NCBI RefSeq assembly: GCF_002019635.1
Contig: NZ_KV917372.1
Span: 620,001 to 684,000, forward strand
Origin: Metabacillus halosaccharovorans
GTDB taxonomy: Bacteria > Bacillota > Bacilli > Bacillales > Bacillaceae
Length of the DNA stretch: 64,000 nucleotides
Direction: 5' to 3'
Shown here one piece after another: positions 16,625 to 36,239 of the stretch. The notes below the pieces were generated by a model. It had not been told where the DNA came from. It did not search any database and saw only the letters and a list, made by a program, of their open reading frames with translations. The translations under genes were made by a program, and so were the position numbers. Numbering within the stretch: position 1 is the stretch's first letter; each line of letters begins with the position of its first letter.

Positions 16625-18043
16625 TCACATTGGAAGTGTAACAGATACGACGGTTCCTTGACCAACAATTGAATCGATTTCGATTCTTCCCTGATGATTT
16701 TCAATAATTTGAAAACTAGTCATCAGGCCAAAGCCTGTTCCTTTTTCTTTGATTGAATAATAAGGTTCACCAATGTTTTTTAGGCGTTCATTTGGAATTC
16801 CACGTCCATTATCTTTCACTTTGACTTTGATGATGCCATCGTTAGCAGACAAGTTTATATAAACCGTTCCTTTTTCTTCGAGTGCATCTAAACCATTTTG
16901 AATGATTTGATAAAATACCTGCTTAAGCTGATTTTTGTCACCTCTAACAAGTGGGTTAGCTGCTACATTTTCATACTTTATTTCTTTATTAACTAAAATG
17001 GCTTGTGTATTTAAAAGAGTGATGACTTGATTGATCAATTCATCTATATTGAGTGTTTCGTTTTTTTCTTGCTGAGGTCTAGCCATCGTTAGAAACTCCG
17101 AAATGATTTCCTCTACTCGATTCAATTCGTCTCGAACAATTTTCATATACTCTTCATTACATTCTTTCGTTTGAGAAAATAACTGGATAAAGCCTTTTAT
17201 TGATGTTAACGGGTTTCGAATTTCATGTGCCACAGCAGCGGCAAGTTGTCCAACAACTGCTAATTTTTCAGACTTTTGTAACAGCTTGTCCTTCTCTAAT
17301 CGACTTGTAATATCACGAGATATAGATATCAAGCCGGTAATTTCCCCAGTTTTTTCATCTGCTATAGAACGAATACTTGATTCCACCCAAATATATGTAT
17401 CATTTTTATGTTTAAATCGATAAGTGATAAGAATAGGATGATGATTTTCCAGTAAGGACATATGCTTCTTTTGAACATAGGAAATATCTTCCGGATGAAT
17501 ATATTGATATGGAACATCTCCTGTTAGTTCATCAGTATCATATCCCAGAATTTGGGTAATCGATGGTGAACTGTACAAAAATCTTCCATCTGGTAAATAC
17601 AAATTGATAATATCTGAAGAGTTATCAGCTAACAACCTATACTTCTGTTCATTATCCGTTAGTACCCTTTCCAGATTTTTTTGTTCCGTTATATCGTATA
17701 TTTGAGCTAAAAAATATTTTTTTTGAGCATCTGGATCTTCAATCGAGGTAACGTTTAACGATCCCCAAATAATTTCACCAGATTTGTGAAAATATCGTTT
17801 TTCCATCTGATAGGATGGACGTTTTCCGATAAAAACTTCATGATATAACTGCATATCAAGTTGATAATCTTCCGGATGAGATATTTCTCTTAAGGTTACT
17901 TCATCCCATTCTTCTTTCGAATATCCAATAAATTCAAAAAAGGCTTCATTTGCCACATTATCTTTGAAATTGTATTCAAATATCATTTGCGGAATTCTAG
18001 ATTGAAAAAAAACTTTTTCTAAAATTGACGATTTTAATCTCAT
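16625..18043 (-). CDS. PAS-PAS sensor histidine kinase (sporulation-kinase-like)
   Basis: 472 residues from the ATG at 18043; an in-frame GTG at 18061 has no ribosome site. No transmembrane helix, so probably cytosolic. PAS/PAC 1 covers about 10-125 and PAS/PAC 2 about 130-250. The HisKA box AAAVAHEIRNPLTSIKGFIQ puts the phospho-His at about 273. HATPase boxes are NGLDAL, VKVKDNGRGIPNERL and GTGFGLMTSFQIIENHQG. No response regulator is adjacent, and the H-box style resembles KinA/KinE, so feeding the Spo0F phosphorelay is plausible but inferred. Confidence 0.85.
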   Translation of the reverse strand: MRLKSSILEKVFFQSRIPQMIFEYNFKDNVANEAFFEFIGYSKEEWDEVTLREISHPEDYQLDMQLYHEVFIGKRPSYQMEKRYFHKSGEIIWGSLNVTSIEDPDAQKKYFLAQIYDITEQKNLERVLTDNEQKYRLLADNSSDIINLYLPDGRFLYSSPSITQILGYDTDELTGDVPYQYIHPEDISYVQKKHMSLLENHHPILITYRFKHKNDTYIWVESSIRSIADEKTGEITGLISISRDITSRLEKDKLLQKSEKLAVVGQLAAAVAHEIRNPLTSIKGFIQLFSQTKECNEEYMKIVRDELNRVEEIISEFLTMARPQQEKNETLNIDELINQVITLLNTQAILVNKEIKYENVAANPLVRGDKNQLKQVFYQIIQNGLDALEEKGTVYINLSANDGIIKVKVKDNGRGIPNERLKNIGEPYYSIKEKGTGFGLMTSFQIIENHQGRIEIDSIVGQGTVVSVTLPM

Positions 18044-18211
18044 ATTACATCCGACCTTCACTTACTATTAATTGTAAATTTATTTCCACTGAAACTACTA
18101 TATCAATTTTCTGATAGAATAACCATGTATTTTGTATGATATCCCAAAACTGAACTATTCTCCTAATGGCTAATAGGAAAGATGATGTGAATGAGGCTTA
18201 TTGCAAATAAA

Positions 18212-21780: not shown

Positions 21781-22455
21781 CTATTTAAAATAATTCGGAT
21801 ATGATCGTTTTAAATATTCCTTATCAATAACCGCCAGCATTAAATGCTCTTGCATCAACTTCTCCGCTTTATCAGGGTTTTTCTCTTTTATTCCTTCAAA
21901 AATTTCTTTATGTTGCAAGTAAATGGTATACCAGTTAAAGTCAGTCGCTAACCTGAGCATTCTGCTTCGATTAAAGTGAACATTCATTTGTTGAATAACT
22001 GACCATATATTATACTTTTGACACCCCATAAAAATGGTCTTATGATATTCCTCATCCAGTTCAAACATTTTTCGGTAATCCTGCTGTTCAATACAAACTT
22101 TTTGCATGCTGAGATTCATTTCTAATGTAATTAGTTTATCTTGAGGAAATGTTTCACAAGCTAATCGAATGACCGCTCTTTCCAAATGCTCCCTCATAAA
22201 TCTTGCTTCTTCCACTAAATTTAAGTCGATTAAAGAGACAAACGTTCCTCTTTGAGGAAATACGTTTAATAGCCCCTCTCTCGAAAGGCGTAAAAAACTT
22301 TCCCGAACCGGAGTACGACTTACATTGAATTTTTCAGACATCTCCTTCTCTGAAATACTTGTACCTGGTGCGAGTTGTAAATTTAGTATTTGTGATTTTA
22401 GTTCTTCATACACTTGATTGCTTGTTGAAGATCTCGGTTTATGGTCTATATACAT
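21781..22455 (-). CDS. GntR-family (FCD/FadR subfamily) transcriptional regulator
   Basis: 224 residues from the ATG at 22455, 8 nt after GGAG. Winged helix-turn-helix at about 10-75: NQVYEELKSQILNLQLAPGT then EKFNVSRTPVRESFLRLSRE. The FCD effector domain follows (EARFMREHLERAVIRLACE ... DEEYHKTIF ... QHKEIFEGI). FCD regulators often sense sugar acids, and the gene lies directly behind uxuA. It is the best candidate for the protein that reads the three identical 16-bp sites at 23676, 29088 and 31584. Probably a repressor released by a uronate intermediate; that part is inference. Confidence 0.88.
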   Translation of the reverse strand: MYIDHKPRSSTSNQVYEELKSQILNLQLAPGTSISEKEMSEKFNVSRTPVRESFLRLSREGLLNVFPQRGTFVSLIDLNLVEEARFMREHLERAVIRLACETFPQDKLITLEMNLSMQKVCIEQQDYRKMFELDEEYHKTIFMGCQKYNIWSVIQQMNVHFNRSRMLRLATDFNWYTIYLQHKEIFEGIKEKNPDKAEKLMQEHLMLAVIDKEYLKRSYPNYFK

Positions 22456-22516
22456 TTGATACTCTCCAATCATCTAATGTAACAGTTTTCTATTAATCTA
22501 TTAAGAAGTTCTTACC

Positions 22517-23623
22517 TTATAAATTTAACGTCCCACGTTTTTTATTCTTTTGTGCTTTGACTTTTTCTAAGCTGTCCCAAATGCCAAGCAGATACATTAT
22601 ACCTAGTGCACGATCGTATAAGCCGTATCCCGGTCGAGCTTGTTCTCCCCAAATCATCCTTCCATGATCTGGTCTCACATATCCTTTAAAGTTTGTCTCA
22701 TGTAAAGCTTTAACAATTTCATAAATATCTAAGGATCCGTCAGAGCTTCGATGGGAGCTTTCAGTGAAATCTCCGTTTTCTTCGATTTTCACATTTCGTA
22801 TATGAGCAAACGGTATCCTGTTTATGCTTGAAAAATACCGCATGATCGCGGGAATATCATTATCAGGATTTACTCCAAGTGAACCAGAACATAATGTTAA
22901 ACCGTTCGAAGGACTATCCACAAGATTGACAATCCTCTTTAAATTCTGAAACTTCGTCACGATTCTTGGTAATCCAAAAATTGACCATGGAGGATCATCA
23001 GGATGAATGGCCATTTTTATATCATGTTCCTCAGCCACAGGAATTACTTTCTTTAAAAAGTATTGCAGGTGTTCAAATAAATCTTCTTCTGTTACATCTT
23101 TATATAATTCAAATGCTCTCTTAATTTTTTTAATTCTTTCAGGCTCCCAACCTGGTAGTGAAAAGCCATTTGCAGAGTTTTCAACATTTTTTATTAAAAC
23201 TTCATGATCTACACGTTCAATCTTTTCCTTTTCATAAGCAAGTACTGTTGATCCATCAGGTAACACCTTAGCCAGATCAGATCTAATCCAATCAAAGACA
23301 GGCATAAAGTTATAACAAATGACTTTTATTCCAGCTTGTGCTAAATGACGAATTGTTTGTTGATAATTTTCTATATAATGATCACGTGTTGGTAATCCCA
23401 GTTTAATATCTTCATGTACATTTACACTCTCAATTATATCAAGGTTTAAGCCTTTTGCATTTATCTCTTTCTTTAAATCGAAAATTCTATCCAACGGCCA
23501 CACCTCTCCAGCGGCTATATCATGCAGTCCCCCGACGATGCCATCCATTCCCGGAATCTGTTTTATTTGATCAAGGGTAACACTATCATCTTGACTCCCA
23601 AACCAACGAAACGTCATTTTCAT
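22517..23623 (-). CDS. uxuA: D-mannonate dehydratase
   Basis: 368 residues of UxuA, a Mn/Fe-dependent TIM-barrel enzyme converting D-mannonate to 2-keto-3-deoxygluconate in glucuronate breakdown. Hallmarks are MTFRWFGSQDDSVTLDQIKQ at the N-terminus, CYNFMPVFDW, AIHPDDPPW, LCSGSLGV and VRPDHGRMIWGE, which supply the metal ligands (His, Cys, Asp/His). Slightly longer than B. subtilis UxuA. A candidate GntR operator lies 53 bp upstream. The isomerase UxaC is absent here, so the pathway needs a distant gene. Confidence 0.95.
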   Translation of the reverse strand: MKMTFRWFGSQDDSVTLDQIKQIPGMDGIVGGLHDIAAGEVWPLDRIFDLKKEINAKGLNLDIIESVNVHEDIKLGLPTRDHYIENYQQTIRHLAQAGIKVICYNFMPVFDWIRSDLAKVLPDGSTVLAYEKEKIERVDHEVLIKNVENSANGFSLPGWEPERIKKIKRAFELYKDVTEEDLFEHLQYFLKKVIPVAEEHDIKMAIHPDDPPWSIFGLPRIVTKFQNLKRIVNLVDSPSNGLTLCSGSLGVNPDNDIPAIMRYFSSINRIPFAHIRNVKIEENGDFTESSHRSSDGSLDIYEIVKALHETNFKGYVRPDHGRMIWGEQARPGYGLYDRALGIMYLLGIWDSLEKVKAQKNKKRGTLNL

Positions 23624-23675: not shown

Positions 23676-23691
23676 ATACTAGTATGGTAGT
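23676..23691. promoter_or_regulatory. GntR-type operator, copy 1 (uxuA)
   Basis: ATACTAGTATGGTAGT, identical at 29088 and 31584. It contains the perfect palindrome ATACTAGTAT and the wider dyad ACTA-N6-TAGT. It lies 53 bp before the uxuA start. Confidence 0.75.
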
Positions 23692-23716
23692 TTAGTTATT
23701 TTACGTTTGAAATTTA

Positions 23717-24514
23717 TTATTTAGCATGAATCAAATTTTCATTAGATAGAAATGTTATTTGTATCGCTGGAAAATAGGACTTGAGTTTTTCCGCTAAGTA
23801 TTCCATCCCGGGTTCTTCGCTGGCAGCATGACCAATCATGATTAAGAGCTTTTTCTTACCTTGAACTCCTGCGTCACGTATATATTCCGGTGTTTCCCAC
23901 TCCTGACCTTCTCCAGTGATAATCAAGTCCACGTTTTCTTTTTCGAATAATGGGATGGCTGTTTCTCCACCTCCTCGAAAACCAACTGTAAGTCCTATCC
24001 TAGCGCATTCAAGGCTCAAATCTCCTACAACTCGAACAAAAGGAATAGAAAGTTTTTCTTTCACATACGCAACGATTTTTTCACCTGACATAGGTGGGAT
24101 AGCCAGAATAGATGATGTGTGATTATGTCTCTCTAAATAGCCGTCCCACTCTAATCTCTGAATAAGCCCTTCTGTTATTAGATCAGGCGTGTATTTGTGA
24201 ATATAGTCATGAAATCGGTAAATAGCGATTCCTGAGTTTTTAATTAGTTCAAGCTTTTCAGCATATACTCCATTATTTTTTAAGACTTTATCGTTTTGAT
24301 TATGACTGTAAAATATTCCTTCATGTGTTATTATCATGTTTGCACCTATTTTTTTGGCATGTTTAATAGCAAAATGTGATGCGACAAATGTTATAAGTAT
24401 TCCATTTACCTCATCATCACCATTTCCAAATAGGAGCGAGTCTACTGTTGATTCCATATTCTCAACTGGAGACTCTAATTGTTTCACAACATCTGTTACT
24501 TTTATTCCCATCAT
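23717..24514 (-). CDS. Nif3-like dinuclear metal-centre protein
   Basis: 265 residues of the NIF3/YqfO/DUF34 family, usually hexameric with two metals per subunit. Metal-site segments are NMIITHEGIFYS (His, Glu) and the C-terminal MIGHAASEEPGMEYLAEKL (His, Glu). The middle VGFRGGGETAIPLFEKENVD is also family-like. The family's reaction is unknown. This is a single-domain version without the extra CutA-like insert of YqfO. It lies between the transporter genes and uxuA in the same direction, so it belongs to the sugar-acid locus and may act on a uronate intermediate. Confidence 0.8.
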   Translation of the reverse strand: MMGIKVTDVVKQLESPVENMESTVDSLLFGNGDDEVNGILITFVASHFAIKHAKKIGANMIITHEGIFYSHNQNDKVLKNNGVYAEKLELIKNSGIAIYRFHDYIHKYTPDLITEGLIQRLEWDGYLERHNHTSSILAIPPMSGEKIVAYVKEKLSIPFVRVVGDLSLECARIGLTVGFRGGGETAIPLFEKENVDLIITGEGQEWETPEYIRDAGVQGKKKLLIMIGHAASEEPGMEYLAEKLKSYFPAIQITFLSNENLIHAK

Positions 24515-24547
24515 GTTCCCCTCGCATTATTGTTATCATTTTATAAA

Positions 24548-25261
24548 CTACTCCAGTTGTTGATCTGTATGTTTTGAACTCGTTTTCAGAAAGTTAGTTT
24601 CAATATCTAAAAGCATTTCCTTTGTATTAAGGGCCAAGAGATAAAAGACAATGCTTGATACAAAAAGAATTAAAAAGTCAGTTGTAATTGTCGTAATAAA
24701 TGCTAGGATAAACAGGATCAACATATTTCCCACTGTGTTTTTCACCTTCATAAAACTGTAATAAACAGATAGCTTCCATATATCTCTCATTCTAAATTTA
24801 AAGCGCGAACTTATTGCAACAGCATTTAATATCAACATAGTCCATAAGACGATCAGAACGAAAATCACTATCGATAAAATTTGATTTAATTCTGTTGGTG
24901 TTTGGCGAAGATACTGTAAATCAACGATTAAAATAAAGTAAACCAAAAGAATTGGGAACCAGATGGATAAAATATCTTTTATATTCTTTTTAAATCCGTA
25001 GAAAAAGTCATGTGTTGGAGAAAGCTCTTTCGTTCTCACAAGTTTTTCCATAGAATAGTATAAAGCTGCTACAGCTGGACCTGTGGGGATTAGAGCTAAA
25101 AAGTACAGGAGAATGTTTGAAAATGAAGGTTCTAATGTCATAAAGAAAAAAATAAACAGTCCATTAGTTAAGACAAAATAAATATTTGTTAATAGAAAAG
25201 CATAAACATAGTTAGTAAATGTATATAAAATCCCTTGACCAAATTGATTCTTTTCATCCAT
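24548..25261 (-). CDS. DUF624 (YesL-like) membrane protein
   Basis: 237 residues with five to six hydrophobic helices. ALIPTGPAVAALYYSMEKLV near residue 60 and the following KELSPTHDFFYGFKKN are typical of DUF624/YesL. These proteins accompany ABC importers for complex plant polysaccharides (yes, lpl and aldouronate clusters). An auxiliary role in transport or sensing is assumed, not proven. The ATG follows an intercistronic hairpin after the lipoprotein gene. Confidence 0.85.
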   Translation of the reverse strand: MDEKNQFGQGILYTFTNYVYAFLLTNIYFVLTNGLFIFFFMTLEPSFSNILLYFLALIPTGPAVAALYYSMEKLVRTKELSPTHDFFYGFKKNIKDILSIWFPILLVYFILIVDLQYLRQTPTELNQILSIVIFVLIVLWTMLILNAVAISSRFKFRMRDIWKLSVYYSFMKVKNTVGNMLILFILAFITTITTDFLILFVSSIVFYLLALNTKEMLLDIETNFLKTSSKHTDQQLE

Positions 25262-25283
25262 TATTGTTCACCTGCTTTTTAGT

Positions 25284-25327
25284 AGAGGTTAACTAAACGT
25301 GATATGAGTCACGTTTAGTTAACCTCT
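25284..25327 (-). other. 19-bp perfect intercistronic hairpin
   Basis: AGAGGTTAACTAAACGTGA (25284-25302) pairs perfectly with 25309-25327, loop TATGAG. It lies between the lipoprotein stop (25336) and the YesL-like gene. On the minus strand no U tract follows, so it looks like an mRNA-stabilising or attenuating hairpin that favours the binding-protein message. Confidence 0.8.
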
Positions 25328-25335
25328 TTATTAGA

Positions 25336-26964
25336 TTATTTATTAGCGTCTTTATACGTTTTATTTGCTAGATCTACGTATTGTTGCAAGCCTTGACCCT
25401 CTAATTCTTTTACAAATGCATCGAATTCACTTAAATCACGTTCACCTAAGATAAATTTCAATGTATTTTGATCAGTAAAATCTTTTAATGGCGTGCTTAA
25501 TAATGTTACTTGTTCTCTATCTTCAACTGTGTAAGGAATTGGTGGCTCTGCAGGAACGGTTGTTTTTCTATTTGCCATATCCTCTTGGAACTTGATCTCC
25601 TCTTCACTCATCATAGATCGAAGAAGGTCAGTTGTTCCACCATAAGCAAATACTCCTCCTGAGAAACCATAATCGATACGTAAGTCTTTCGTTCCAGCAG
25701 GGTTTAAGCCATTATAATTAACCTCTTCAACCAGAGTTCTAGTTCCATCTTCAGCCTTTGTAAATGTCGTGCCTTCAACTCCCCATTTAGTAAACTCCTG
25801 ACCTTCATCACTATAATATAACCAATCAATGAATTGAAGGATCGCGTCAAAGTATTCGCTTTCTTTAGCTTTAGAAGAAATCATTACCCCATTTTCTAAT
25901 CTTGAACCGCCCATTAAATCTCCAGCAGGTCCACCAGGAACAGTTATTTTCGCAATAGAATAATTTCCTTCACCTAACGTTTTGTCCATATCAGTTCGAT
26001 GTTGAACAACTGTTTGTGAGTTTCCATTAATGATAAATGACTTGCCTGTAACAAACTTCTGAACAGCCTGATCATCTTCTTGAGTAAAGCTTTCTTTATC
26101 CAATAGACCTTCTTCAACTAATTTATTAAAATAGGTTAGCAATTCTTTATACTCATCTGTTGTTGCTGTTGGTACGAATTCATCCTTAGATTCGTCATAT
26201 GTTAAACCATTTCCAAAACCCCATCCGGCTTTTGTGCCGAAGTTAACTGCGGCAATATTTAGTGTACTATTGAAAGTAAATCGATCAGAAAAAGGTGTAA
26301 CATCAGGATATAATTCCTTTAATTGTTTCATTGCTGTATACAATTCATCCCATGTTTTTGGAATCGCAATATTATGCTTTTCGAAAATATCTGTTCTTAC
26401 AATTAATGTATAATCTGGCCAAACAGCTTCATGTAAACCAGGTAAAACGTAGAATTTTCCATCCTTCTGACGAAGTCCTTTTAATTCATCTTCAAGTTGC
26501 CATTTCTCCACTTTTTCCTTAAAGTGAGGCATTTTGTCCATGTAATCACTTATAGGTAATGCTGCGCCAGAAGCAACAAATGGTGCTTCTTCACCTGGAT
26601 AAGTTTTTGGAATTATTAACGGTGCATCACCAGAACTAATTAAAAGACTACGTTTTTGAGGATAATCACTTAAAGGAACAATTGTTGGTTTTAATGTTAC
26701 ATTCGTTGTTTCTTTAATATGATCCCATAACAGCCAGTCTTCCTTGTATGGATATGTAGGTTGATCCATGTAGAGAATTGAAAGATCAAATTCTTCACTA
26801 GATTTAAAAGTATCACCTACATTGTATGATTCCATCGCTCCTTTTTGATTTACGTTCTTCTCCTCTGAACTTGATGTTTCATTGTTTGAACACCCAGCAA
26901 CAACAAGTGCTGACAAAGCCAATACACTAAATGTCGACTTTAACCCTTTTAGACCTTTCCCCAT
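25336..26964 (-). CDS. ABC transporter solute-binding lipoprotein (LplA/YtcQ type)
   Basis: 542 residues from the ATG at 26964 behind GGGAGGAAAAGAA. A lipoprotein signal ends in ALVVAGC, with Cys25 as the lipidated residue and a Ser/Glu-rich linker after it. The large extracellular solute-binding family 1 domain fits the LplA/YtcQ group (about 500-560 residues), which binds oligosaccharides. With the two LplB/LplC-type permeases it forms the importer. Paenibacillus aldouronate systems have the same layout. The bound sugar is inferred from the neighbouring alpha-glucuronidase and uxu genes. Confidence 0.9.
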   Translation of the reverse strand: MGKGLKGLKSTFSVLALSALVVAGCSNNETSSSEEKNVNQKGAMESYNVGDTFKSSEEFDLSILYMDQPTYPYKEDWLLWDHIKETTNVTLKPTIVPLSDYPQKRSLLISSGDAPLIIPKTYPGEEAPFVASGAALPISDYMDKMPHFKEKVEKWQLEDELKGLRQKDGKFYVLPGLHEAVWPDYTLIVRTDIFEKHNIAIPKTWDELYTAMKQLKELYPDVTPFSDRFTFNSTLNIAAVNFGTKAGWGFGNGLTYDESKDEFVPTATTDEYKELLTYFNKLVEEGLLDKESFTQEDDQAVQKFVTGKSFIINGNSQTVVQHRTDMDKTLGEGNYSIAKITVPGGPAGDLMGGSRLENGVMISSKAKESEYFDAILQFIDWLYYSDEGQEFTKWGVEGTTFTKAEDGTRTLVEEVNYNGLNPAGTKDLRIDYGFSGGVFAYGGTTDLLRSMMSEEEIKFQEDMANRKTTVPAEPPIPYTVEDREQVTLLSTPLKDFTDQNTLKFILGERDLSEFDAFVKELEGQGLQQYVDLANKTYKDANK

Positions 26965-27034
26965 TTCTTTTCCTCCCTTTTTTTGGTTTTGTCGATTTAA
27001 CATAAGCGTTTTTATCTACTTAGGCGATAAGACG

Positions 27035-27070
27035 CTCATTAAAAGAAAGATAATCCCTTCTCTTAATGAG
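27035..27070 (-). other. intercistronic hairpin between permease and binding protein
   Basis: CTCATTAAAAGAA (27035-27047) pairs with TTCTCTTAATGAG (27058-27070), one mismatch, 10-nt loop. No U tract on the minus strand. Probably an mRNA processing or stability element. Confidence 0.55.
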
Positions 27071-27123
27071 AGTCTCATTGCTACTAAGTAAACAATGAAG
27101 CTTTTATTAAACGCTTTTGTATT

Positions 27124-27993
27124 TTACTTAACAGATCCGAGCATTACTCCCGATACAAAGTATTTTTGTACAAATGGATAGATTGTTAAGATCGGTAAAA
27201 TTGTTAAGACCATCGTAACGGATTTAATGTTTGCCGATATTTGAGTTAAATTATCAGCAGAAGAGGCACCGGCAGATGTTGCTCCAGTCACACCTGCTAT
27301 CATATTTCTCAAATACATCGTAACAGGGAATAACTCTTTTTGATCTAAGTATAAGAATGCTGGAAACCAAGAGTTCCAATGTCCTACTGCATAAAACAAA
27401 ATCATTGTTGCAATAACTGCCTTACTGAGGGGCAGAACAATTTTCAATAAAATTCCATACGTATTTAATCCATCGATAGAAGCCGCTTCCTCCAATTCTT
27501 CTGGCATATTTTCAAAAAATGACTTCATAATTAACATGTTATAAACACTGATCGCACCTGGAATGACGATGGCCCAAATTGAGTTACCAAATCCTAAACT
27601 ATTAATTAACACATAGTTAGGTACTAACCCACCATTAAAAAACATGGTAAATACGGCGAAAAATGTTAAAAACTTTCTACCTACTAAACGTTTCTTTGAT
27701 AATGCATAGGCAAAGATTGTTGTAAGGAACATAGAAATCGCTGTTCCTACAACTGTATATACAACTGTATTTTTATAATTGATCCAAAACATACTATCTT
27801 GTGCAATTGTCTTGTAAGTGTCTATATTAAATCCTCTAGGGAAAAGAGTAACTTTCCCTGCATTGATATAGGCCTCACTACTAAATGATTGAGCGATTAC
27901 ATTTAAAAAAGGGTAAAGTGTACAAAAAACGATGATGATTAAAATTGATACATTGAAAACTTTAAATATTTTATATTGTTTTGACTCTTTCAT
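27124..27993 (-). CDS. ABC sugar permease (LplC/YtcP type)
   Basis: 289 residues with six membrane helices of the BPD_transp_1 (MalG-like) family. The ATPase-coupling EAA loop is EEAASIDGLNTYGILLKIVL (about 175-195). It ends PFVQKYFVSGVMLGSVK, as usual for this subfamily. It starts 13 bp after the partner permease. No ATPase gene is near; such systems normally share MsmX. Confidence 0.9.
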   Translation of the reverse strand: MKESKQYKIFKVFNVSILIIIVFCTLYPFLNVIAQSFSSEAYINAGKVTLFPRGFNIDTYKTIAQDSMFWINYKNTVVYTVVGTAISMFLTTIFAYALSKKRLVGRKFLTFFAVFTMFFNGGLVPNYVLINSLGFGNSIWAIVIPGAISVYNMLIMKSFFENMPEELEEAASIDGLNTYGILLKIVLPLSKAVIATMILFYAVGHWNSWFPAFLYLDQKELFPVTMYLRNMIAGVTGATSAGASSADNLTQISANIKSVTMVLTILPILTIYPFVQKYFVSGVMLGSVK

Positions 27994-28005
27994 TTTATCA
28001 ACCCC

Positions 28006-28968
28006 CTACCACAAGCTTCTTTCAGTTAATTTTCTAGAAATTCCATTAGCTGATAATACTAAGACCAAGCCTATAATAGATTCAAATAACCCGATCGCAG
28101 TTGCATAACTAAAATTACTAGATTCCAAACCAACTCGATATAAATATGTTGAGATAACATCTGATGTTTGATAAGTTAATGGGTTATATAAAAGTAAGAT
28201 TTTTTCAAAGCCTACTGCCAAGAAACTCCCGATATTTAGAATTAGTAAAACAACAATTGTTGGAAGAATTCCTGGTATTGTGATATGAAGAGTTTGTTTC
28301 CAGCGATTTGCACCATCTATTTTGGCAGCCTCATACAATGATTCATCTATTGTTGTTAGTGCTGCTAAGTACAAAATTGCTCCCCATCCCATCGTTTGCC
28401 ATATCTCTGAAGTTACATAAATGGTTCTGAACCATTCTGCTTGTTGAATAAAGTTAATCTTTTCACCCGTGAAAAATTCCACAATCGAATTGATAGTCCC
28501 ATTAACTGCTGTTAATTGCAGAATCATTCCTGCTACAATAACGATTGATAAAAAGTGAGGTAAATATGATGCCGTTTGAACAAACTTCTTGAATTTTTTC
28601 GCTTTAATTTCATTAAGCAATAAGGCAAAAATGATCGGCATCGGAAAACAAATAATAAGTGTTAATCCACCAAGCATTAGGGTGTTTTTAAACACATTCC
28701 AAAATGTTGGATCATTGATAAACATCTTAAAATAATGTAGGCCTACCCAAGATTCCCCGTAAATTTTACCTCCAGGCATAAATCGTCTAAATGCAATAAT
28801 ATTCCCAAACATAGGTCCATATTTAAATATGATTAAGTAAATGATGGGTAGAACTAGCAATGAGTACAGCTGCCAATCCCTTCGTATGATAGTTCCCAAA
28901 AAAGCTAGTTTACTTCTTTTGATTACAATATTTGATTCCCCACCTGTTTCGACTTTAATTTCTGCCAT
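28006..28968 (-). CDS. ABC sugar permease (LplB/YteP type)
   Basis: 320 residues, six helices, MalF-like. The EAA loop is YEAAKIDGANRWKQTLHITI followed by PGILP. FKYGPMFGNIIAFRRFMPGG near the N-terminus is a common subfamily segment. First gene of the importer unit. The start is preceded by GGGGGATTAAT. Its promoter region carries GntR operator copy 2 and a cre-like site, so the importer is probably under both substrate and catabolite control. Confidence 0.9.
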   Translation of the reverse strand: MAEIKVETGGESNIVIKRSKLAFLGTIIRRDWQLYSLLVLPIIYLIIFKYGPMFGNIIAFRRFMPGGKIYGESWVGLHYFKMFINDPTFWNVFKNTLMLGGLTLIICFPMPIIFALLLNEIKAKKFKKFVQTASYLPHFLSIVIVAGMILQLTAVNGTINSIVEFFTGEKINFIQQAEWFRTIYVTSEIWQTMGWGAILYLAALTTIDESLYEAAKIDGANRWKQTLHITIPGILPTIVVLLILNIGSFLAVGFEKILLLYNPLTYQTSDVISTYLYRVGLESSNFSYATAIGLFESIIGLVLVLSANGISRKLTERSLW

Positions 28969-29021
28969 ATTAATCCCCCCACTCTTTTCACAAAATAATT
29001 AAGAACAAAAACAACATATCT

Positions 29022-29035
29022 TTGAAGCGCTTACA
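29022..29035. promoter_or_regulatory. cre-like site upstream of the importer
   Basis: TTGAAGCGCTTACA matches the CcpA cre consensus TGWNANCGNTNWCA at all fixed positions except two at the left end. Located 54 bp before the permease start. Confidence 0.45.
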
Positions 29036-29087
29036 AACAATTCGAGAGTTTTATATGTTTCTGTTTGATTACAAATGAATATTAATA

Positions 29088-29103
29088 ATACTAGTATGGT
29101 AGT
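29088..29103. promoter_or_regulatory. GntR-type operator, copy 2 (importer)
   Basis: ATACTAGTATGGTAGT, identical to copies 1 and 3, 120 bp before the permease start. On the minus strand it lies just downstream of a possible TTGTAA ... TATTAC promoter. The rest of the 291-bp gap to the oxidoreductase gene shows no gene. Confidence 0.75.
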
Positions 29104-29259
29104 AATATGAAATAGGATAAATTTACAACCGAAATGTTTATATGAGCAATAAAATTAGTGGAGCAGGTGTTTTATGCGACATTCTGTAAAAAAAACAATA
29201 TTATATTACTGTCCTGCCCCATCCATTTGGTTATATTAATTTTTTCTACTACTTAAATA

Positions 29260-30354
29260 CTAGATTTGCATTTCTTCTTCATTTGAGATATTTATCGCGT
29301 TAAGCTGTGCAAGTAAGCATAACTCAGCAGCTTTAAATGTATGCTCTTGAGTCATCGCATTCTCCGTTCCATTTAAGCAGTCTAAAATATGTGAACCGAA
29401 ATATGGAAATCCCACTTTTCCATTTACATTAAAATGTTTTTCACCAACTTCATTGACTAGATACAAGTGACTACCGCTTTTTTCTCTTGCAATATCAACA
29501 TATTTTCTTAATTCTATATAGCCTTCTGTACCTAAGATGAGTGTTCTTCCATCTCCCCAAGTACTTAGACCGGTCGGAGTTAACCAATCAACCCGGAAAT
29601 AACCTGTTGCTCCATTATCAGCAATTAAATTAGCATCCCCAAAATCTTCAAGCTCAGGATATTTTGAATGTTTGTAGTTTCCTACTTTACTATGGACCAC
29701 TCTTGCGTCTTTAGCTCCTGTATAAAATAAAAACTGTTCAATTTGATGACTTCCGATGTCACATAAAATTCCGCCATAAAATTCTTTTTTGAAGAACCAA
29801 TCCGGTCGATGATCTGGATTAGTACGATGTGGACCTGTGCCCATCACTTGAACAACATCTCCAATTGCACCTTGCTCAATAAGCTGCCCTGCAAAAATGG
29901 CACTTTCATTATGAAGACGTTCACTATAATAGACAGCCCAAATGAGTCCAGTTTCTTTCACTTTATCTTTGGCAGCTTGTAATTGACTTAATGTTGTAAA
30001 GGGTGCTTTGTCAGTAAAATAGTGCTTACCTGCATTCATGGTTCTCAAACCTAATTCACATCGTTTAGATGTAATGGCTGCACCGGCAACTAACTGAACA
30101 GAAGGGTCCTGAAGAACTTCTTCCTCAGATACAGCAACCTTCACGTTTGGAAAAATTCCACAAAATCTGTCCACCTTTTTTTTATCAGGGTCATACACCC
30201 ATTTTAATTCAGCACCAGCCTCTATTAATCCATTACACATTCCATAAATGTGTCCATGATCAAGTCCAATAGCAGCAAAAGCAAATTCACCTTCTTGAAC
30301 AACAGGTTCATATTTACCTATTGGCGCATAATTCATGCCATCATGTGTTTGCAT
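29260..30354 (-). CDS. Gfo/Idh/MocA family NAD(P)-dependent oxidoreductase
   Basis: 364 residues. N-terminal Rossmann domain (FAAIGLDHGHIYGMCNGLIE, then ELKWVYDPDKKKVDRF), followed by the EKP-like substrate loop, here TDKAPFTT, in which Lys is kept. The C-terminal alpha/beta domain includes CDIGSHQIEQFLFYTGA with the conserved His. The VGLDHGH start marks a subgroup distinct from its neighbour. The substrate is unknown; the family oxidises sugars, sugar acids or inositols. It lies 24 bp behind the second Gfo/Idh gene, so the pair is an operon. Confidence 0.85.
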   Translation of the reverse strand: MQTHDGMNYAPIGKYEPVVQEGEFAFAAIGLDHGHIYGMCNGLIEAGAELKWVYDPDKKKVDRFCGIFPNVKVAVSEEEVLQDPSVQLVAGAAITSKRCELGLRTMNAGKHYFTDKAPFTTLSQLQAAKDKVKETGLIWAVYYSERLHNESAIFAGQLIEQGAIGDVVQVMGTGPHRTNPDHRPDWFFKKEFYGGILCDIGSHQIEQFLFYTGAKDARVVHSKVGNYKHSKYPELEDFGDANLIADNGATGYFRVDWLTPTGLSTWGDGRTLILGTEGYIELRKYVDIAREKSGSHLYLVNEVGEKHFNVNGKVGFPYFGSHILDCLNGTENAMTQEHTFKAAELCLLAQLNAINISNEEEMQI

Positions 30355-30378
30355 AATATCCTCCTTGACTCGCTTTAT

Positions 30379-31539
30379 TTACTCGTATTTACCACCTGTT
30401 GTAATTTTTGTATCAGAGAAATTTTCAATGCTCGTTGTTTTCTCATAAAAACGTTTAACATGTGCAAGTATTCCTTCACGTGTATAAAAAGGATCATCTA
30501 CTGAAAGAGGTAATGTTACGCGAACACCTTCATTTGCAGACTTGTAAATGGCTGTAATGAGTTCTAATGTATTACGTCCTTGAATACCATCAACAAGTAA
30601 ACACTCTTGGCCATTGATGGCTTCTAAGAACTGATTAATTTGTCCAGTGTGGCCTTCATGTTCAAGTAATGGACATTCATCCCAAAATTGTTGAATCTTC
30701 GTTTCGATGTCAGTATCACTTTCTTCGTATGGAAATCCATTCGCTCGAGCCTTTTGCGCTTTCACCTTCCATGGAACAGAAACTCTTGCTTTTTCCCCTT
30801 GAAAAATAAGCTGCTGTTCTTCACCATGATGGACAACAGAACTCGTCACTTGTGCTAATCCTCCATCTTCATACTGTAAAATGGCAACCGACAGATCTTC
30901 AACCTCTGCATTATCATGTAATGTATTTGAAGAAATAGCTACGATTTCTTTCGGCATTCCCATCATCCATTGCAACATATCAATATGATGAACAGCATGA
31001 TTTAACGTACAGCCTCCACCTTCTTTTTCCCAAGTGCCTCTCCACCATAAATCATAGTAACTATGACCTCTCCACCAATAGGAATCAATTTGTGCATGAG
31101 CTATTTTCCCAATTAATTTCTGGTTCAGTACATGACTTAAATTCATAATTGGATTCATAAAACGATTTTGAGCAACAACAGATAGTAGTCTATTGCTTTC
31201 CTTAGCTGCCATAATCATGTCGTCACATTCTTTTAATGAGGAAGCCATTGGTTTTTCAACCAAAACATGTTTACCCGCTCGAAGAAAGTCAACAGCTAGA
31301 TTTCTATGAGTAAAAGGTGGTGTACATATTGAAACAGCATCAATTGTTGGATCATCCAATAATTCACTGTAATCGCTAACAATTTTACATTTTAAAGAGA
31401 AAGTTTCTGCAAGTGTCCTCGCTTTGTCTGGGTAGATATCTGCTAATGCAACGATTTTACATTTTTCCGATAAAGTATCATACGCTTTAACATGGGCAGA
31501 AGCTATTCCACCGGCACCGATAATGGCTATATTAATCAA
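30379..31539 (-). CDS. Gfo/Idh/MocA family NAD(P)-dependent oxidoreductase
   Basis: 386 residues. Dinucleotide loop INIAIIGAGGIASAHVKAYD, the conserved HVLVEKPMASSLKEC with the catalytic EKP lysine, and the C-terminal GGGCTLNHAVHHIDMLQWMM with the metal/catalytic His. Starts at TTG (31539). A sigma-A promoter (TTGAAA at 31625-31630, TATAAG at 31603-31608, 16-bp spacer) is followed directly by GntR operator copy 3, so the pair has its own uronate-responsive promoter. Exact reaction unknown. Confidence 0.86.
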   Translation of the reverse strand: MINIAIIGAGGIASAHVKAYDTLSEKCKIVALADIYPDKARTLAETFSLKCKIVSDYSELLDDPTIDAVSICTPPFTHRNLAVDFLRAGKHVLVEKPMASSLKECDDMIMAAKESNRLLSVVAQNRFMNPIMNLSHVLNQKLIGKIAHAQIDSYWWRGHSYYDLWWRGTWEKEGGGCTLNHAVHHIDMLQWMMGMPKEIVAISSNTLHDNAEVEDLSVAILQYEDGGLAQVTSSVVHHGEEQQLIFQGEKARVSVPWKVKAQKARANGFPYEESDTDIETKIQQFWDECPLLEHEGHTGQINQFLEAINGQECLLVDGIQGRNTLELITAIYKSANEGVRVTLPLSVDDPFYTREGILAHVKRFYEKTTSIENFSDTKITTGGKYE

Positions 31540-31583
31540 GGGACCATTTCCTTTCCGAATAGAAGATTAATAATATCCTAGTA

Positions 31584-31599
31584 ATACTAGTATGGTAGT
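31584..31599. promoter_or_regulatory. GntR-type operator, copy 3 (oxidoreductase pair)
   Basis: ATACTAGTATGGTAGT. It lies 3 bp downstream of the TATAAG minus-10 box (31603-31608, complement), over the expected transcription start, a classic repressor position. Confidence 0.78.
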
Positions 31600-31634
31600 G
31601 AACTTATAAAAAAATGTTATGTCATTTCAAAATA

Positions 31635-33725
31635 TTAGTAAATAAGGCGACTATGTTCATCCTGGATACCGGAATGTCTAAAGAAATACGTATTGATACG
31701 ATCTCTCCACTCAATTGCATTTTCTAATTGCATGTTAAATCGATCTAATACATTTTTATACCGATAGGAATCTATGTTTTGCTCAAGCTGTTTCCACTTT
31801 TGAATCATATCCTGAACCTGTTCAACCCCTAAAAAGTGTGTATCGTAAATATGTTGAATAACCGTCTTACCCGATTTTAATTGATGACGATAAGGGACAT
31901 GATGGAAAAATAATAATAAATTATCCGGACACGTTTCAATTGAATCATATAGACTGGCGTTTTCAGGATAATATTGTGAAGTATATCCAGTTCCGTCTTT
32001 TATCGTTCGATTCACTCCTGTACCAAAGCAATCTGAAAAATGATACGTTCCCCACAATGAGTATTCATACCCTTCAATATTAGGTCCATAGTGATGACCC
32101 GGATTAATCATCCAGCCAACCCCAAGCGGTGCCGTATAATTCTCATAAATCTCCCAAGAATGAAGAAGCATTTTCGTAATAGTTGAAACAACTTCATCAT
32201 CATGACCAAATGTAATACGAACCCACTCATTCGCAATTTCCTCTGATGTTAAGTCGGTATTCCAAATTAAACGGCCATAGCCAAAAAAGTTTGCTTGAGC
32301 AAGTGTATTTCCTGTCCAGTTCATATCATTTCCAATATTAGATACAGCTGTGATACCACTATATGTTAGGTCAAACTGTGATCCATCTACAATCGATTTG
32401 ATCGTGGTTCCTTCTCCCTTTGCGTGCGTGTCAAAGTCCAAAACTTCCTTCCATTGTGGAACAAGGAAGCATAAATCTTTTTGTTGTCCCGTATATTCTT
32501 GTGCCACTTGAAATTCAAGTACATGGTTTGTGTTCTGCAGGGCACCAAATAAAGGGGAAACAGGTTCTCTTACTTGGAAATCCATTGGACCATTTTTAAT
32601 CTGGAGAATAACATTATCCATAAACTCTCCGTCTAATGGTTTAAAATGATCATATGCCGCTCTTGCACGATCTGTTTTTCGATCACGCCAATCTTGAAGA
32701 CAGTTGTAAACAAAACATCTCCAGAAAACAAGTCCACCAAACGGCTCAAGTGCTTTAGCCAGCATATTTGCCCCATCTGCATGTGTACGATTATATGTAA
32801 AAGGCCCGGGACGATGTTCTGAATCCGCTTTCACAATAAACCCGCCAAAATCAGGTATATGTTGATAAATCTCTTTTGTTTTCTCGATCCACCATTGCTG
32901 TACATCTTTATCCAAAGGATCTGCAGTTGGAAGATTACCAATTTCCATTGTACTTGCATAATTAACACTTAAATATGTTGTAATACCATAACATCTCATA
33001 ATATCAGCAATTTCTGCAACGCTTGGTAGCATTTCTTTTGTAATAAGATTAGTCTCCACTTTGTGCACGTTTACATTATTAATGGATAAACTGTTAATTC
33101 CGACTGAAGATAACAATCTAGCATAGTCTTTGATTCTTTTTATATCATGTATAAATTCATAGTCTTTATAGAAAATGGAATCTCCAGAATATCCCCGCTC
33201 AATACTACCGTCCATATTATCCCAATGATTAATCATTCGAATTTGGTTAGACGGATTTTCTATAATGGCTAATTCATTAAGGTTTTCTCGCATTTGCATA
33301 AGTCTTAAGAGATGAAATGCTCCATATAACACACCTTTATCCTGTTTTCCAATTATCGCGATTGTATGATGGTTTTTGTATGTAATCGTTTGAATAAGGT
33401 AGCTGTCTTCTTGTAAATGATCTAAAACTGTTGTATTAATACCATAATCTTTTAATTGGTTATTTTCATAAGTTGCTAAAACAATTGATGGTTTTTCTAG
33501 TGGGACTGCATGTACTGATGGAGGGTGTATCATCGAAGTAATACCTTGTACCAGCTCTTCTTTAGCTGCCTGAATGATTTGTGAATGATCTAAAAAGATG
33601 AGAGTTTCGCAATATGTCTGATAATGTTCTTTTATTGAGCTGTCAAGCTTATTATATTGCAGCCAACAATGATACGCTGCTTCCAAAGTTTGTTCTTTGA
33701 TTTGGATATTAGTGGAATTGTTCAA
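31635..33725 (-). CDS. aguA: alpha-glucuronidase, GH67
   Basis: 696 residues, full length for GH67. It removes (4-O-methyl)-alpha-D-glucuronic acid from the non-reducing end of xylo-oligosaccharides. By alignment from memory to Geobacillus AguA, catalytic residues are Glu303 ([10 protein letters not shown]), Asp382 ([11 protein letters not shown]) and Glu410 (AQEYTGQ); the 79- and 28-residue spacings match. No signal peptide, so it acts in the cytosol on imported aldouronates. TTG start behind AAAGGGG. It lies downstream of xylA across a hairpin. Confidence 0.95.
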
Positions 33726-33749: not shown

Positions 33750-33786
33750 TAGGATGACTCTACAGACAGAGTCATCCTCCTTTTTA
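33750..33786. terminator. xylA-aguA intercistronic hairpin
   Basis: Perfect 11-bp stem AGGATGACTCT (33751-33761)/AGAGTCATCCT (33768-33778). The T tract lies on the plus-strand side only, so for minus-strand xylA it may be a partial terminator or a stability hairpin. Confidence 0.6.
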
Positions 33787-33796
33787 TAAAAAGAAT

Positions 33797-35128
33797 TTAA
33801 ACCGTTACATTTGCCAATGTTTCAATAATGTATTGGTTTACCGTTGCTTTTAAACGCTCTTGTCTACCTGAAGCATTTTTAATTTCTGTTAATTGTAGAG
33901 CATATTCTTCAAGCTTGCGAAGGTTTGTTTTTCCTTCAACAATCTCTAGTCCAATTCCTTGTGTATAACTGCTATATCTTTCTTCAATAAAGTTATCAAG
34001 AACTTTATCTTGGATTAATTTGTTCGCAACTTTTGTACCGATTGCAAATGTGTCCATTCCGGCAATATGTGCATGGAAAAGATCTTCAGCTTCAAATGAT
34101 CCTCTTCTTACTTTTGCATCGAAGTTTAATCCGCCTTTTCCTAAGCCATCATTTTTGAGAATCTCATACATTGCTAATGTTGTAGAATATAAATCTGTCG
34201 GGAATTCATCCGTATCCCAGCCAAGTAGTGTATCACCTTGGTTTGCATCAACAGATCCCAGCATATTGTTTTCGCGTGCAACACGTAATTCGTGTTCGAA
34301 CGTATGACCTGCAAGTGTAGCGTGGTTTGCTTCAATATTAAATTTAAAATGGTCTGTAAGATCATATTTTTGCAAGAAAGCTAATCCAGTCGCAACATCA
34401 AAATCATATTGGTGTTTAGTAGGTTCTTTTGGTTTTGGTTCAATTAGGAATGGTGCATCAAAACCGATTTCTTTAGCATAGTCAACTGCCATATGGAAGA
34501 AACGTGCAAGGTTATCTAATTCTAAGCCCATGTTTGTATTAAGAAGTGTTTCATAGCCTTCACGACCACCCCAGAATACATAGTTTTCCGCACCTAGCTC
34601 TTTTCCAACTTCAAGCGCTTTTTTCACCTTTGCCGCTGAGTAAGCGTAAACATCAGCATTGTTAGAAGTAGCAGCCCCATGAACATAACGTGGGTTTGTA
34701 AACATGTTCGCTGTATTCCAGAGTAGCTTCGTTTTGCTTGTTTTCATATATTCTTTAATCATCGCAACAATAATATCTTGATTTTTATTTGATTCAGCTA
34801 ATGTTGCTCCTTCTGGTGCAATATCTACATCATGGAAGCAGAAGAATGGTACATTTAGCTTTTCGAAAAATTCAAATGCAGCTTCAACACGAGCTTTTGC
34901 TAAATCTAAGCCTTGCAAGTGATTCCATGGGCGAACAGCTGTTCCAACACCGAACGGATCGGAACCGTCAGCAGTAAATGTATGCCAGTATGCAACTGAA
35001 AAGCGGAGTAAATCCTCCATTTTCTTTCCGTTAATGACTTCCTCAGGATTATAGTATTTAAAAGCTAGAGGGTTTGCAGAACCAGGTCCTTCATATTTAA
35101 TTTGGTTAACGTTTTCAAAATAAGCCAT
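33797..35128 (-). CDS. xylA: D-xylose isomerase
   Basis: 443 residues from the ATG at 35128, 8 nt after GGGAGG; longer readings run into the leader. XylA interconverts D-xylose and D-xylulose with two divalent metals. Seen are [14 protein letters not shown] (active-site His), [36 protein letters not shown] and [18 protein letters not shown], the standard metal and substrate residues. The leader has a XylR-type operator and a cre. No xylB or xylR is adjacent, unlike the B. subtilis xylAB operon. Confidence 0.96.
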
Positions 35129-35173
35129 GTTTTTTGCCTCCCGATTAACTAAACTTAAAAACTCCCAAACTAC

Positions 35174-35187
35174 TGTTAACGCTTTCA
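35174..35187. promoter_or_regulatory. cre site in the xylA leader
   Basis: TGTTAACGCTTTCA matches the CcpA consensus TGWNANCGNTNWCA at every position. It lies 46 bp before the xylA ATG, between operator and gene, where CcpA would block elongation. Confidence 0.78.
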
Positions 35188-35285
35188 ATAATAGAGCATT
35201 AACATACAACAATTAGCTTTTTGGTTGTCTTTTAATATAAGTTTTATTCTTTTGTTCCTTACACCAATATAATAACACCTCTAAG

Positions 35286-35310
35286 TTAGTTTGTCTATTG
35301 AATAAACTAA
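35286..35310. promoter_or_regulatory. XylR operator (xylO-like) of xylA
   Basis: A 25-bp dyad with arms TTAGTTTGT (35286-35294) and ATAAACTAA (35302-35310), one arm mismatch. Its length and arm sequence match the Bacillus xylose-repressor operator. On the minus strand it overlaps a possible promoter with TATTAT at 17-bp spacing from TAGACA. Confidence 0.75.
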
Positions 35311-35393: not shown

Positions 35394-36239
35394 TTAGACA
35401 CCTGAATAAGCCATAAATCCACCATCAACCGGTACACTTATTCCTGTAACGAATTTACTTGAGTTCTCATCGATTAACCATAATAATGTACCTAATAAGT
35501 CATCTGGATCTCCCAGTCTTTTCATAGGAGTGTGTGCTAGAATTTTTTTCGTTCGGTCAGTATAGCTGCCATCCTCGTTTTTCAATAATTTTTCATTTTG
35601 TTTCGTTAAGAAAAATCCTGGTGCAATTGCATTTACACGAATACCTGTCTCAGCCATATGGACCGCAAGCCATTTTGTGAAATTCTCAATTCCGGATTTT
35701 GCTGCACTATATGCAGGTACCTTTGTCATAGGGCTTGGTGCACTCATTGATGAAATATTGATGATCGTTCCTTTTGTTTCAATCATTCTCTTCGTAAATA
35801 CTTGAGTCGGAATTAATGTGCCGATAATATTCAGATTAAAAACAGACTGAAAACCTTCTGTCGTAAGGTCAAAGAAAGTCGTAATATCTTTATTTTCTAA
35901 ATCTGACATCTCAAAGATTTCCTTCGTTGTTACCCCCTTCGGATGATTTCCTCCGGCACCATTTATTAATACATGGTAGTCACCGTATACTTCAAAGATC
36001 TTTTGCTCTGCTTTTTTTACACTTTCAATATTAAGTACGTCACACTCGATAGCTAGTGCATCTCCACCAGCTTGAATAATTTCATTCACAACTGCCAAAC
36101 CTTTTTCGTATGTACGGTTTAAAATAGCGACCTTCATTCCTTGTCGAGCTAATTCAATAGCCATACGACCGCAAAGAACTCCTCCGCCACCTGTAATAAC
36201 TGCTACTTTACCTTTTAAATCTTCATATATTGGTAACAT
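35394..36239 (-). CDS. uxuB: SDR-family D-mannonate oxidoreductase (fructuronate reductase), UxuB/YjmF type
   Basis: 281 residues of the short-chain dehydrogenase family. Cofactor loop [25 protein letters not shown] motif with an extended insert ([20 protein letters not shown]) typical of Bacillus YjmF, and catalytic [10 protein letters not shown] (Tyr-x3-Lys). It would reduce D-fructuronate to D-mannonate, the substrate of UxuA. This class is unrelated to the long-chain UxuB of E. coli. Start behind GGAGTAGAAAAT. It lies upstream of xylA with its own leader carrying a partial cre. Confidence 0.86.

Follow-up and report, generated by a model that had tools for sequence, protein, structure and literature searches.

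A predicted operator of an FCD-type GntR repressor in a xylan and uronate locus of Metabacillus halosaccharovorans

In Geobacillus stearothermophilus T-6 a GntR-type regulator, UxuR, is reportedly found in the glucuronic acid cluster. In Thermotoga maritima the GntR regulator UxaR (TM0439) is described, in passages of PMC3750489, as a regulator of uronate genes, among them an ABC importer and the kdgA-kdgK-uxuB-uxuA operon, and a conserved site of 17 nt is present there several times in the locus. For the FadR subfamily, passages of PMC4494728 give operators built of TKGT/ACMA boxes (NyGTM-N0-1-KACNy), assign to the GntR and UxuR groups sites with GT and AC 2 nt apart, and list NanR, FarR and BioR as members with deviating motifs. 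The GH67 and uronate genes of the G. stearothermophilus glucuronic acid cluster are treated in passages of PMC4194401 that carry no regulator name. Here we describe a 16-bp repeated site and a GntR regulator in a locus for xylan and uronate use of Metabacillus halosaccharovorans (contig NZ_KV917372.1). The window is the whole stretch of 64,000 nucleotides that was analysed. An earlier reading of its letters, the original prediction, had paired the site with the regulator encoded next to uxuA.

The 16-bp site and the regulator encoded beside uxuA

The 16-mer is very probably the operator of an FCD-type GntR repressor, predicted to be the product of the gene beside uxuA. It reads ATACTAGTATGGTAGT on the + strand and is present in three exact copies, at the positions and in the single orientation that had been claimed. 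All three are intergenic, and beyond them on the minus strand start the genes that the original prediction had named. The sites and the regulator gene are as follows.

31584..31599, minus strand: operator 1, coding-strand reading ACTACCATACTAGTAT, 45 bp upstream of the first gene of a Gfo/Idh pair
29088..29103, minus strand: operator 2, 120 bp upstream of the first permease gene of the ABC importer
23676..23691, minus strand: operator 3, 53 bp upstream of uxuA-gntR
21781..22473 (likely start 22455), minus strand: GntR-FCD transcriptional regulator (Pfam GntR 1.4e-19, FCD 4.6e-19), predicted binder of the three operators

No further copy had been noticed in the window, and this held even at up to 3 mismatches, a level at which shuffled windows gave a mean of 0.47 matches, with three or more in 2 of 100 shuffles. 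A search of the whole genome (5,399,367 bases, 4 contigs) for exact and one-mismatch copies returned the three window copies only. The next best match, at 2 mismatches, lies within a mechanically called open reading frame (ORF), the 43 others listed have 3 mismatches, and the total at up to 3 mismatches is 47, against 114 for the reversed control pattern. A repeat of no regulatory meaning, due to chance or to a recent duplication, would suit the presence of just three copies at a single locus; nevertheless about 0.006 exact copies are expected per genome (from the base composition of the window), the flanks of the three copies are unlike one another, conservation drops at the edges of the 16-mer (over 33 chosen sites, the profile inside the 16-mer being biased by the search) and the 16-mer is conserved across genera. 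We give this explanation a negligible probability, and a chance repeat was rejected on the uniqueness of the 16-mer in window and genome and on the expected number of copies.

The ORF of the regulator runs from its first ATG over 21781-22473, and the previously given extent of 21781-22455 agrees with the likelier start, since 22455 is preceded by GGAGAG. The protein has an N-terminal GntR winged helix domain (PF00392, 1.4e-19, residues 18-79) and a C-terminal FCD domain (PF07729, 4.6e-19, residues 93-211), and by these profiles it is an FCD (FadR-subfamily) GntR regulator, which is a known kind, with sugar-acid genes as its predicted targets. Among 59 homologues the stretch S52-R53-T54-P55-x-R57-E58 is at least 98% conserved, and D140, H144, H188 and H210 are invariant. 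These four residues are presumably the Asp-His-His-His metal/ligand site of the FCD domain, which would fit an acidic sugar as the predicted inducer. An identical regulator is encoded in a Metabacillus niabensis locus. That the GntR by uxuA is the only fitting regulator nearby, as originally proposed, is in line with the lack of a second close homologue in the genome, where the next best match has E 1e-7 and 21% identity. Its gene follows uxuA after a gap of about 40-60 bp, so that operator 3 would control the regulator too.

The predicted pairing of site and regulator is strongly supported by comparative genomics. In a survey of 80 genomes of the family, the own genome included, the site (up to 1 mismatch) was found in 24 and the regulator (E <=1e-40) in 25: 23 genomes have both, two the regulator only, one the site only and 54 neither (Fisher p 1e-16). 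The site is thus present in 23 of the 25 genomes with the regulator and in 1 of the 55 without it. Within one other genus (44 genomes) the corresponding numbers are 9, 2, 0 and 33 (p 8e-8), and all 25 exact copies among the 80 genomes, from 10 of them, belong to genomes that carry the regulator.

Gene maps were made of 40 stretches around sites and regulators, with Pfam applied to chosen neighbours. Fifty-three of 54 matches at up to 1 mismatch lie no more than 301 bp upstream of the regulator gene or of a xylan/uronate gene, or overlap the mechanically called 5' end of such a gene. Thirteen fall before a permease gene and 11 before a Gfo gene, 4 of the 11 at promoters that also serve a divergent regulator gene. 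Fifteen, with one palindrome counted on both strands, precede the regulator gene alone, and the others stand before uxuA (5), GH67 (5), NIF3 (2) and GH43 (2, one of them examined with Pfam). The 54th is inside an ORF of G053, the lone site-only genome. In many relatives the site stands before the regulator's own gene. Elsewhere the genes after the regulator are uxuA, uxuB and one for an MFS transporter (L101, L103) or uxuA, uxuB and TRAP-type transport genes (L104), and in L101 the regulator is divergent from Gfo/Idh-uxaC. The neighbourhood varies; the regulator and the site remain together.

These maps also bear on the possibility that the 16-mer is read by another regulator, for instance a two-component system encoded in the window or elsewhere in the genome, the GntR being linked to it by position alone. 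Histidine kinases are encoded near the locus (16625-18061; 39626-40966), and in some relatives a kinase lies beside the cluster. The site, however, recurs near the GntR gene in other genera despite the differing neighbourhood, and 54 of the 55 family genomes without the GntR have no site at 1 mismatch, which makes this alternative very improbable. The pairing with the GntR, advanced at first from the adjacency to uxuA, now draws on co-occurrence, on sites before the regulator gene and on recurrence beside distant homologues.

Across the order, a regulator at E <=1e-50 was found in 45 of 397 genomes drawn from it, the own genome included. Twenty-nine loci were examined beyond that of the window, and in 17 of them a copy of the 16-mer with no more than one mismatch stands 1.5 kb or less from the regulator. 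It is exact in 11 of these 17, ten times by regulators of 46-58% identity and once at 66%, and three more of the 29 loci have it at 2 mismatches; permuted control patterns averaged 4.3-5.0 mismatches, with 2 as the lowest value. Of 59 regulator genes, 35 are preceded by the core ATACTWGTAT at a distance of at most 300 bp, against a mean of 0.55 and a maximum of 3 for control palindromes, and the other 24 include the window's regulator and its close kin, located downstream of uxuA. In many genomes of the order the site is tightly tied to the regulator and to xylan/uronate genes.

Two homologous regulators are present in five relatives (G052, G062, G063, G066, G070), and G068 has a partial second copy. 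The second regulator is 51-53% identical to that of the window, with an operator at up to 2 mismatches near each (L111, L112, L116-L120, L096, L099, L100). As both paralogues have the same kind of operator nearby, cross-regulation is predicted.

Promoters and predicted mode of action

31603..31630, minus strand: putative promoter TTGAAA-16-TATAAG, directly upstream of operator 1

On the minus strand at operator 1, TTGAAA (31630-31625) is followed by 16 bp, TATAAG (31608-31603), 3 bp and the site, which agrees with the statement that the 31584 copy sits right after a minus-10 box. The automated promoter scan demanded a final T and did not list this TATAAG. In relatives, 10 of 40 site-gene pairs have a TATAAT-like hexamer (at least 5/6) 9 nt before the operator and 6 of 40 have one at 6 nt; each of the other upstream offsets listed has it in 0-4 pairs. 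The -10 boxes just upstream of the operator in relatives make repression the likely mode: the operator would cover the first transcribed bases or abut the Shine-Dalgarno sequence, positions likely to suit a block.

The reverse, an activator that binds near weak -35 boxes and stimulates transcription, would find some room at operators 2 and 3, which are without a good -35 in the window, and in the 8 of 40 pairs where a TATAAT-like hexamer starts at operator base 13, partly from the operator's own terminal TAT. On the other hand, TTGAA(A/T)-17-TATAAT ends 9 nt before the operator in L111, L116, L118 and L123, the operator is close against the Shine-Dalgarno sequence in L123, L125 and L108, and FCD regulators are mostly repressors. 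We consider activation unlikely.

With repression as the preferred mode, the following scheme may be proposed. In the absence of substrate the regulator dimer would bind the ACTA-N6-TAGT element at the transcription start and block the Gfo/Idh, importer and uxuA-gntR promoters, its own gene included. On entry of aldouronates derived from xylan, an acidic intermediate (fructuronate, mannonate or glucuronate) would bind to the FCD domain at its Asp-His-His-His site and release the repressor. With xylA under a separate XylR-type switch, the locus would integrate xylose and uronate signals.

Several observations weigh against this interpretation. A clear promoter can be drawn for operator 1 only: operator 2 has none convincing, and operator 3 has TAAAAT 6 nt upstream, where the close relative L133 has TATAAT. 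Repression at operators 2 and 3 is thus proposed by analogy. The species in the co-occurrence table are related, which makes the p-values optimistic, and the reversed control at 1 mismatch has 21 scattered matches in 19 of the 80 genomes, so that single 1-mismatch matches alone are weak proof; the position of the operator is the stronger evidence. Two regulator genomes, G007 and G038, are without a site at 1 mismatch; G007 has one at 2 mismatches, and the 20 kb read from G038 contain none even at that level. Mapped on the tree of regulators, the hand-set site label (43 of 59 rows) takes 10 changes; shuffled labels take 14.1, and 2 of 500 shuffles were as low. For this reason we rest the case on co-occurrence and position instead. 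The order-wide sample left out 23 other regulator matches, and in 9 of its 29 loci the best site has 3-4 mismatches, within the control range. Finally uxaC, for the step preceding uxuB, is found as two copies at other places in the genome, and no site is listed within 40 kb of them.

Gene order and other control signals of the locus

All genes of the locus are on the minus strand, in the order uxuB, xylA, GH67 alpha-glucuronidase, operator 1, Gfo/Idh A and B, operator 2, two permeases, solute-binding protein, DUF624, NIF3-like, operator 3, uxuA, the GntR-FCD regulator and a GH2 enzyme. This is one long co-directional array, split by the operators into three controlled units. The genes and the XylR-like element are listed below.

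22517..23623, minus strand: uxuA, D-mannonate dehydratase
23717..24514, minus strand: DUF34/NIF3-like protein, end of the importer gene run
24548..25261, minus strand: DUF624 (YesL-like) membrane protein
25336..27003, minus strand: extracellular solute-binding protein of the importer
27124..27993, minus strand: ABC permease
28006..28968, minus strand: ABC permease, start of the importer gene run
29260..30354, minus strand: Gfo/Idh/MocA oxidoreductase B
30379..31539, minus strand: Gfo/Idh/MocA oxidoreductase A
31635..33725, minus strand: GH67 alpha-glucuronidase (aguA), no operator here; an operator is directly upstream in five relatives' loci
33797..35212, minus strand: xylA, xylose isomerase, of another regulon
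35394..36239, minus strand: uxuB, D-mannonate oxidoreductase, no operator
35286..35310, strand not assigned: XylR-like palindrome TTAGTTTGTCTATTGAATAAACTAA, overlapping the xylA -35 box (TAGACA-17-TATTAT)

The DUF34/NIF3-like gene has its own operator in two relatives (L099, L100). The Gfo/Idh pair is often in the regulon, and the ORF maps after the operator show B alone in G063 and A alone in G061 (L096, L133). In three relatives two operators 81-87 bp apart stand before the importer genes (L098, 1248/1329; L099, 6454/6540; L100, 15183/15270), a spacing for which looping or tandem promoters are possible explanations.

The original prediction had also held that aguA, xylA and uxuB lack the site and that the locus is split into two regulons. 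The first statement is borne out, no match before these genes being found in the window at up to 3 mismatches. The second stands for xylA, which looks to be under a separate XylR-like operator, and fails as a general rule for aguA, as the GntR operator lies directly upstream of GH67 in five relatives' loci; the split at aguA is local and shifts between species. No regulator was identified for uxuB. The palindrome TTAGTTTGTCTATTGAATAAACTAA, which looks like a XylR operator, is kept with 0-1 mismatch in 7 of 7 relatives' loci that show xylA, and the eighth tested, L097, ends before xylA. One further copy in the genome, at 1 mismatch, is upstream of a GH10 xylanase gene. At 2 mismatches its matches are noise (9 in the genome against 11 for the reversed control), and the exact and 1-mismatch copies alone were used. 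A single set of sites for the whole locus was rejected, since xylA has its own palindrome.

Between xylA and aguA, where the 16-mer is absent, lies a strong hairpin (33751-33778, 11 pairs, with a T-run on the + strand only), which could be an mRNA-processing or stabilising element. With a loose consensus for the catabolite-responsive element (CRE) of CcpA, 62 matches with no more than one mismatch were found in the window, where 34 would be expected. One of them is exact and lies at 35174-35188, ahead of the likely start of xylA; matches with 1 mismatch lie at 29021-29036, in the interval that separates operator 2 from its gene.

Operator form and comparison with known regulators

The window operator can be read as ACTA-N6-TAGT, in the geometry with 2-nt spacing but with GG in place of the consensus AC. 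It departs from the FadR-subfamily consensus in passages of PMC4494728, the left TAGTA being similar and the right half having GG for AC (TAGT-AT-GGTA). As the same passages list deviating members, this mismatch is no bar to FadR-subfamily membership by domain.

The same asymmetric letters are found beside regulators of several families. Symmetric variants exist in some homologues: L141 has ACTACCATGGTAGT, and L162 has ACTAGTATACTAGT at a distance of more than 1 kb from its regulator. Longer forms of the site occur in other genera, either a perfect or almost perfect 22-bp palindrome like ACTACCATACTTGTATGGTAGT (L104, L106, L108, L110) or direct repeats such as AGTATGGTAATATGGT (L102) and AGTATGGTAGTATGGT (L142). 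The window operators are a single element each. The genome also contains a further ATACTAGTAT palindrome with diverged arms (3 mismatches each way) at G000:C2:521636-521657.

The extended forms would suit a binding of several dimers to overlapping half-sites spaced 8 bp apart (AGTATGGT repeats), in the manner of NanR, instead of one dimer per 14-bp element. For NanR, passages of PMC8012715 describe three dimers on (GGTATA)3, and PMC4494728 gives direct repeats TGGTATAW. Against this, the three window operators lack a second arm, the cooperativity of NanR needs a 32-residue N-terminal extension according to passages of PMC8012715, whereas here 17 residues precede the GntR domain, and the NCBIfam NanR model scores 63 bits against a cut-off of 260. 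Binding by several dimers seems rather doubtful for this regulator. Also tentative is the idea of an asymmetric operator with overlapping registers, for which we would give only a minor chance: a dimer could read the ACTAGT core in two registers 8 bp apart, and sites could evolve between a one-dimer form (this genome), a palindromic two-dimer form and a tandem NanR-like form with the kind of regulator unchanged, while paralogous regulators would share sites and cross-regulate, merging two uronate regulons.

What seems to be new is the motif in its exact form, how far it reaches and how asymmetric it is, and also the Gfo/Idh pair and the NIF3-like gene as regular members of the regulon. A literature search found no description of the motif in print, the primary Geobacillus cluster paper and the regulon databases being outside its reach, and with the sequence string it returned papers on other subjects only, as judged from titles and abstract starts. 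It also gave no printed form of the B. subtilis gnt operator, which carries no weight in the argument. The analysis turns a pairing drawn from one locus into a well-supported predicted regulon reaching several families of the order. It would assign the Gfo/Idh pair, the NIF3-like protein and the DUF624 protein to the use of glucuronoxylan side chains, the 16-bp operator may be usable as a biosensor part, and the one-, two- and multi-register operators form a natural series for testing the tolerance of FCD regulators to asymmetric sites.

The regulator shares with E. coli UxuR/ExuR the pathway and the subfamily, but it scores far below their NCBIfam cut-offs (PRK10225, 19.0 bits against 442; PRK11523, 20.4 against 396), and its sites have GT-AT-GG where those of the UxuR group, in passages of PMC4494728, have GT and AC 2 nt apart. 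Like E. coli NanR it is predicted to be a FadR-subfamily GntR-type repressor, and the 8-bp TGGTATAW repeats of NanR resemble the sites of some relatives; it differs in the score given above, in having no long N-terminal extension and in the single element of each window site, direct TGGTATAW repeats being absent from the three window sites and found in some relatives only. The best match to a solved structure is 7u5q, a GntR family protein (E 1.5e-30). Over query residues 19-224 the protein also matches 3sxy (E 4e-15) and 3fms (E 1.5e-14). We take 3sxy and 3fms to be TM0439, which makes UxaR a homologue. As far as the passages of PMC3750489 go, in which no effector was found, the present system resembles that of UxaR in combining a GntR regulator, uronate genes with an ABC importer and a site in several copies in the locus, and differs from it in that the proteins are distant and the UxaR regulon is centred on pectin and galacturonate.

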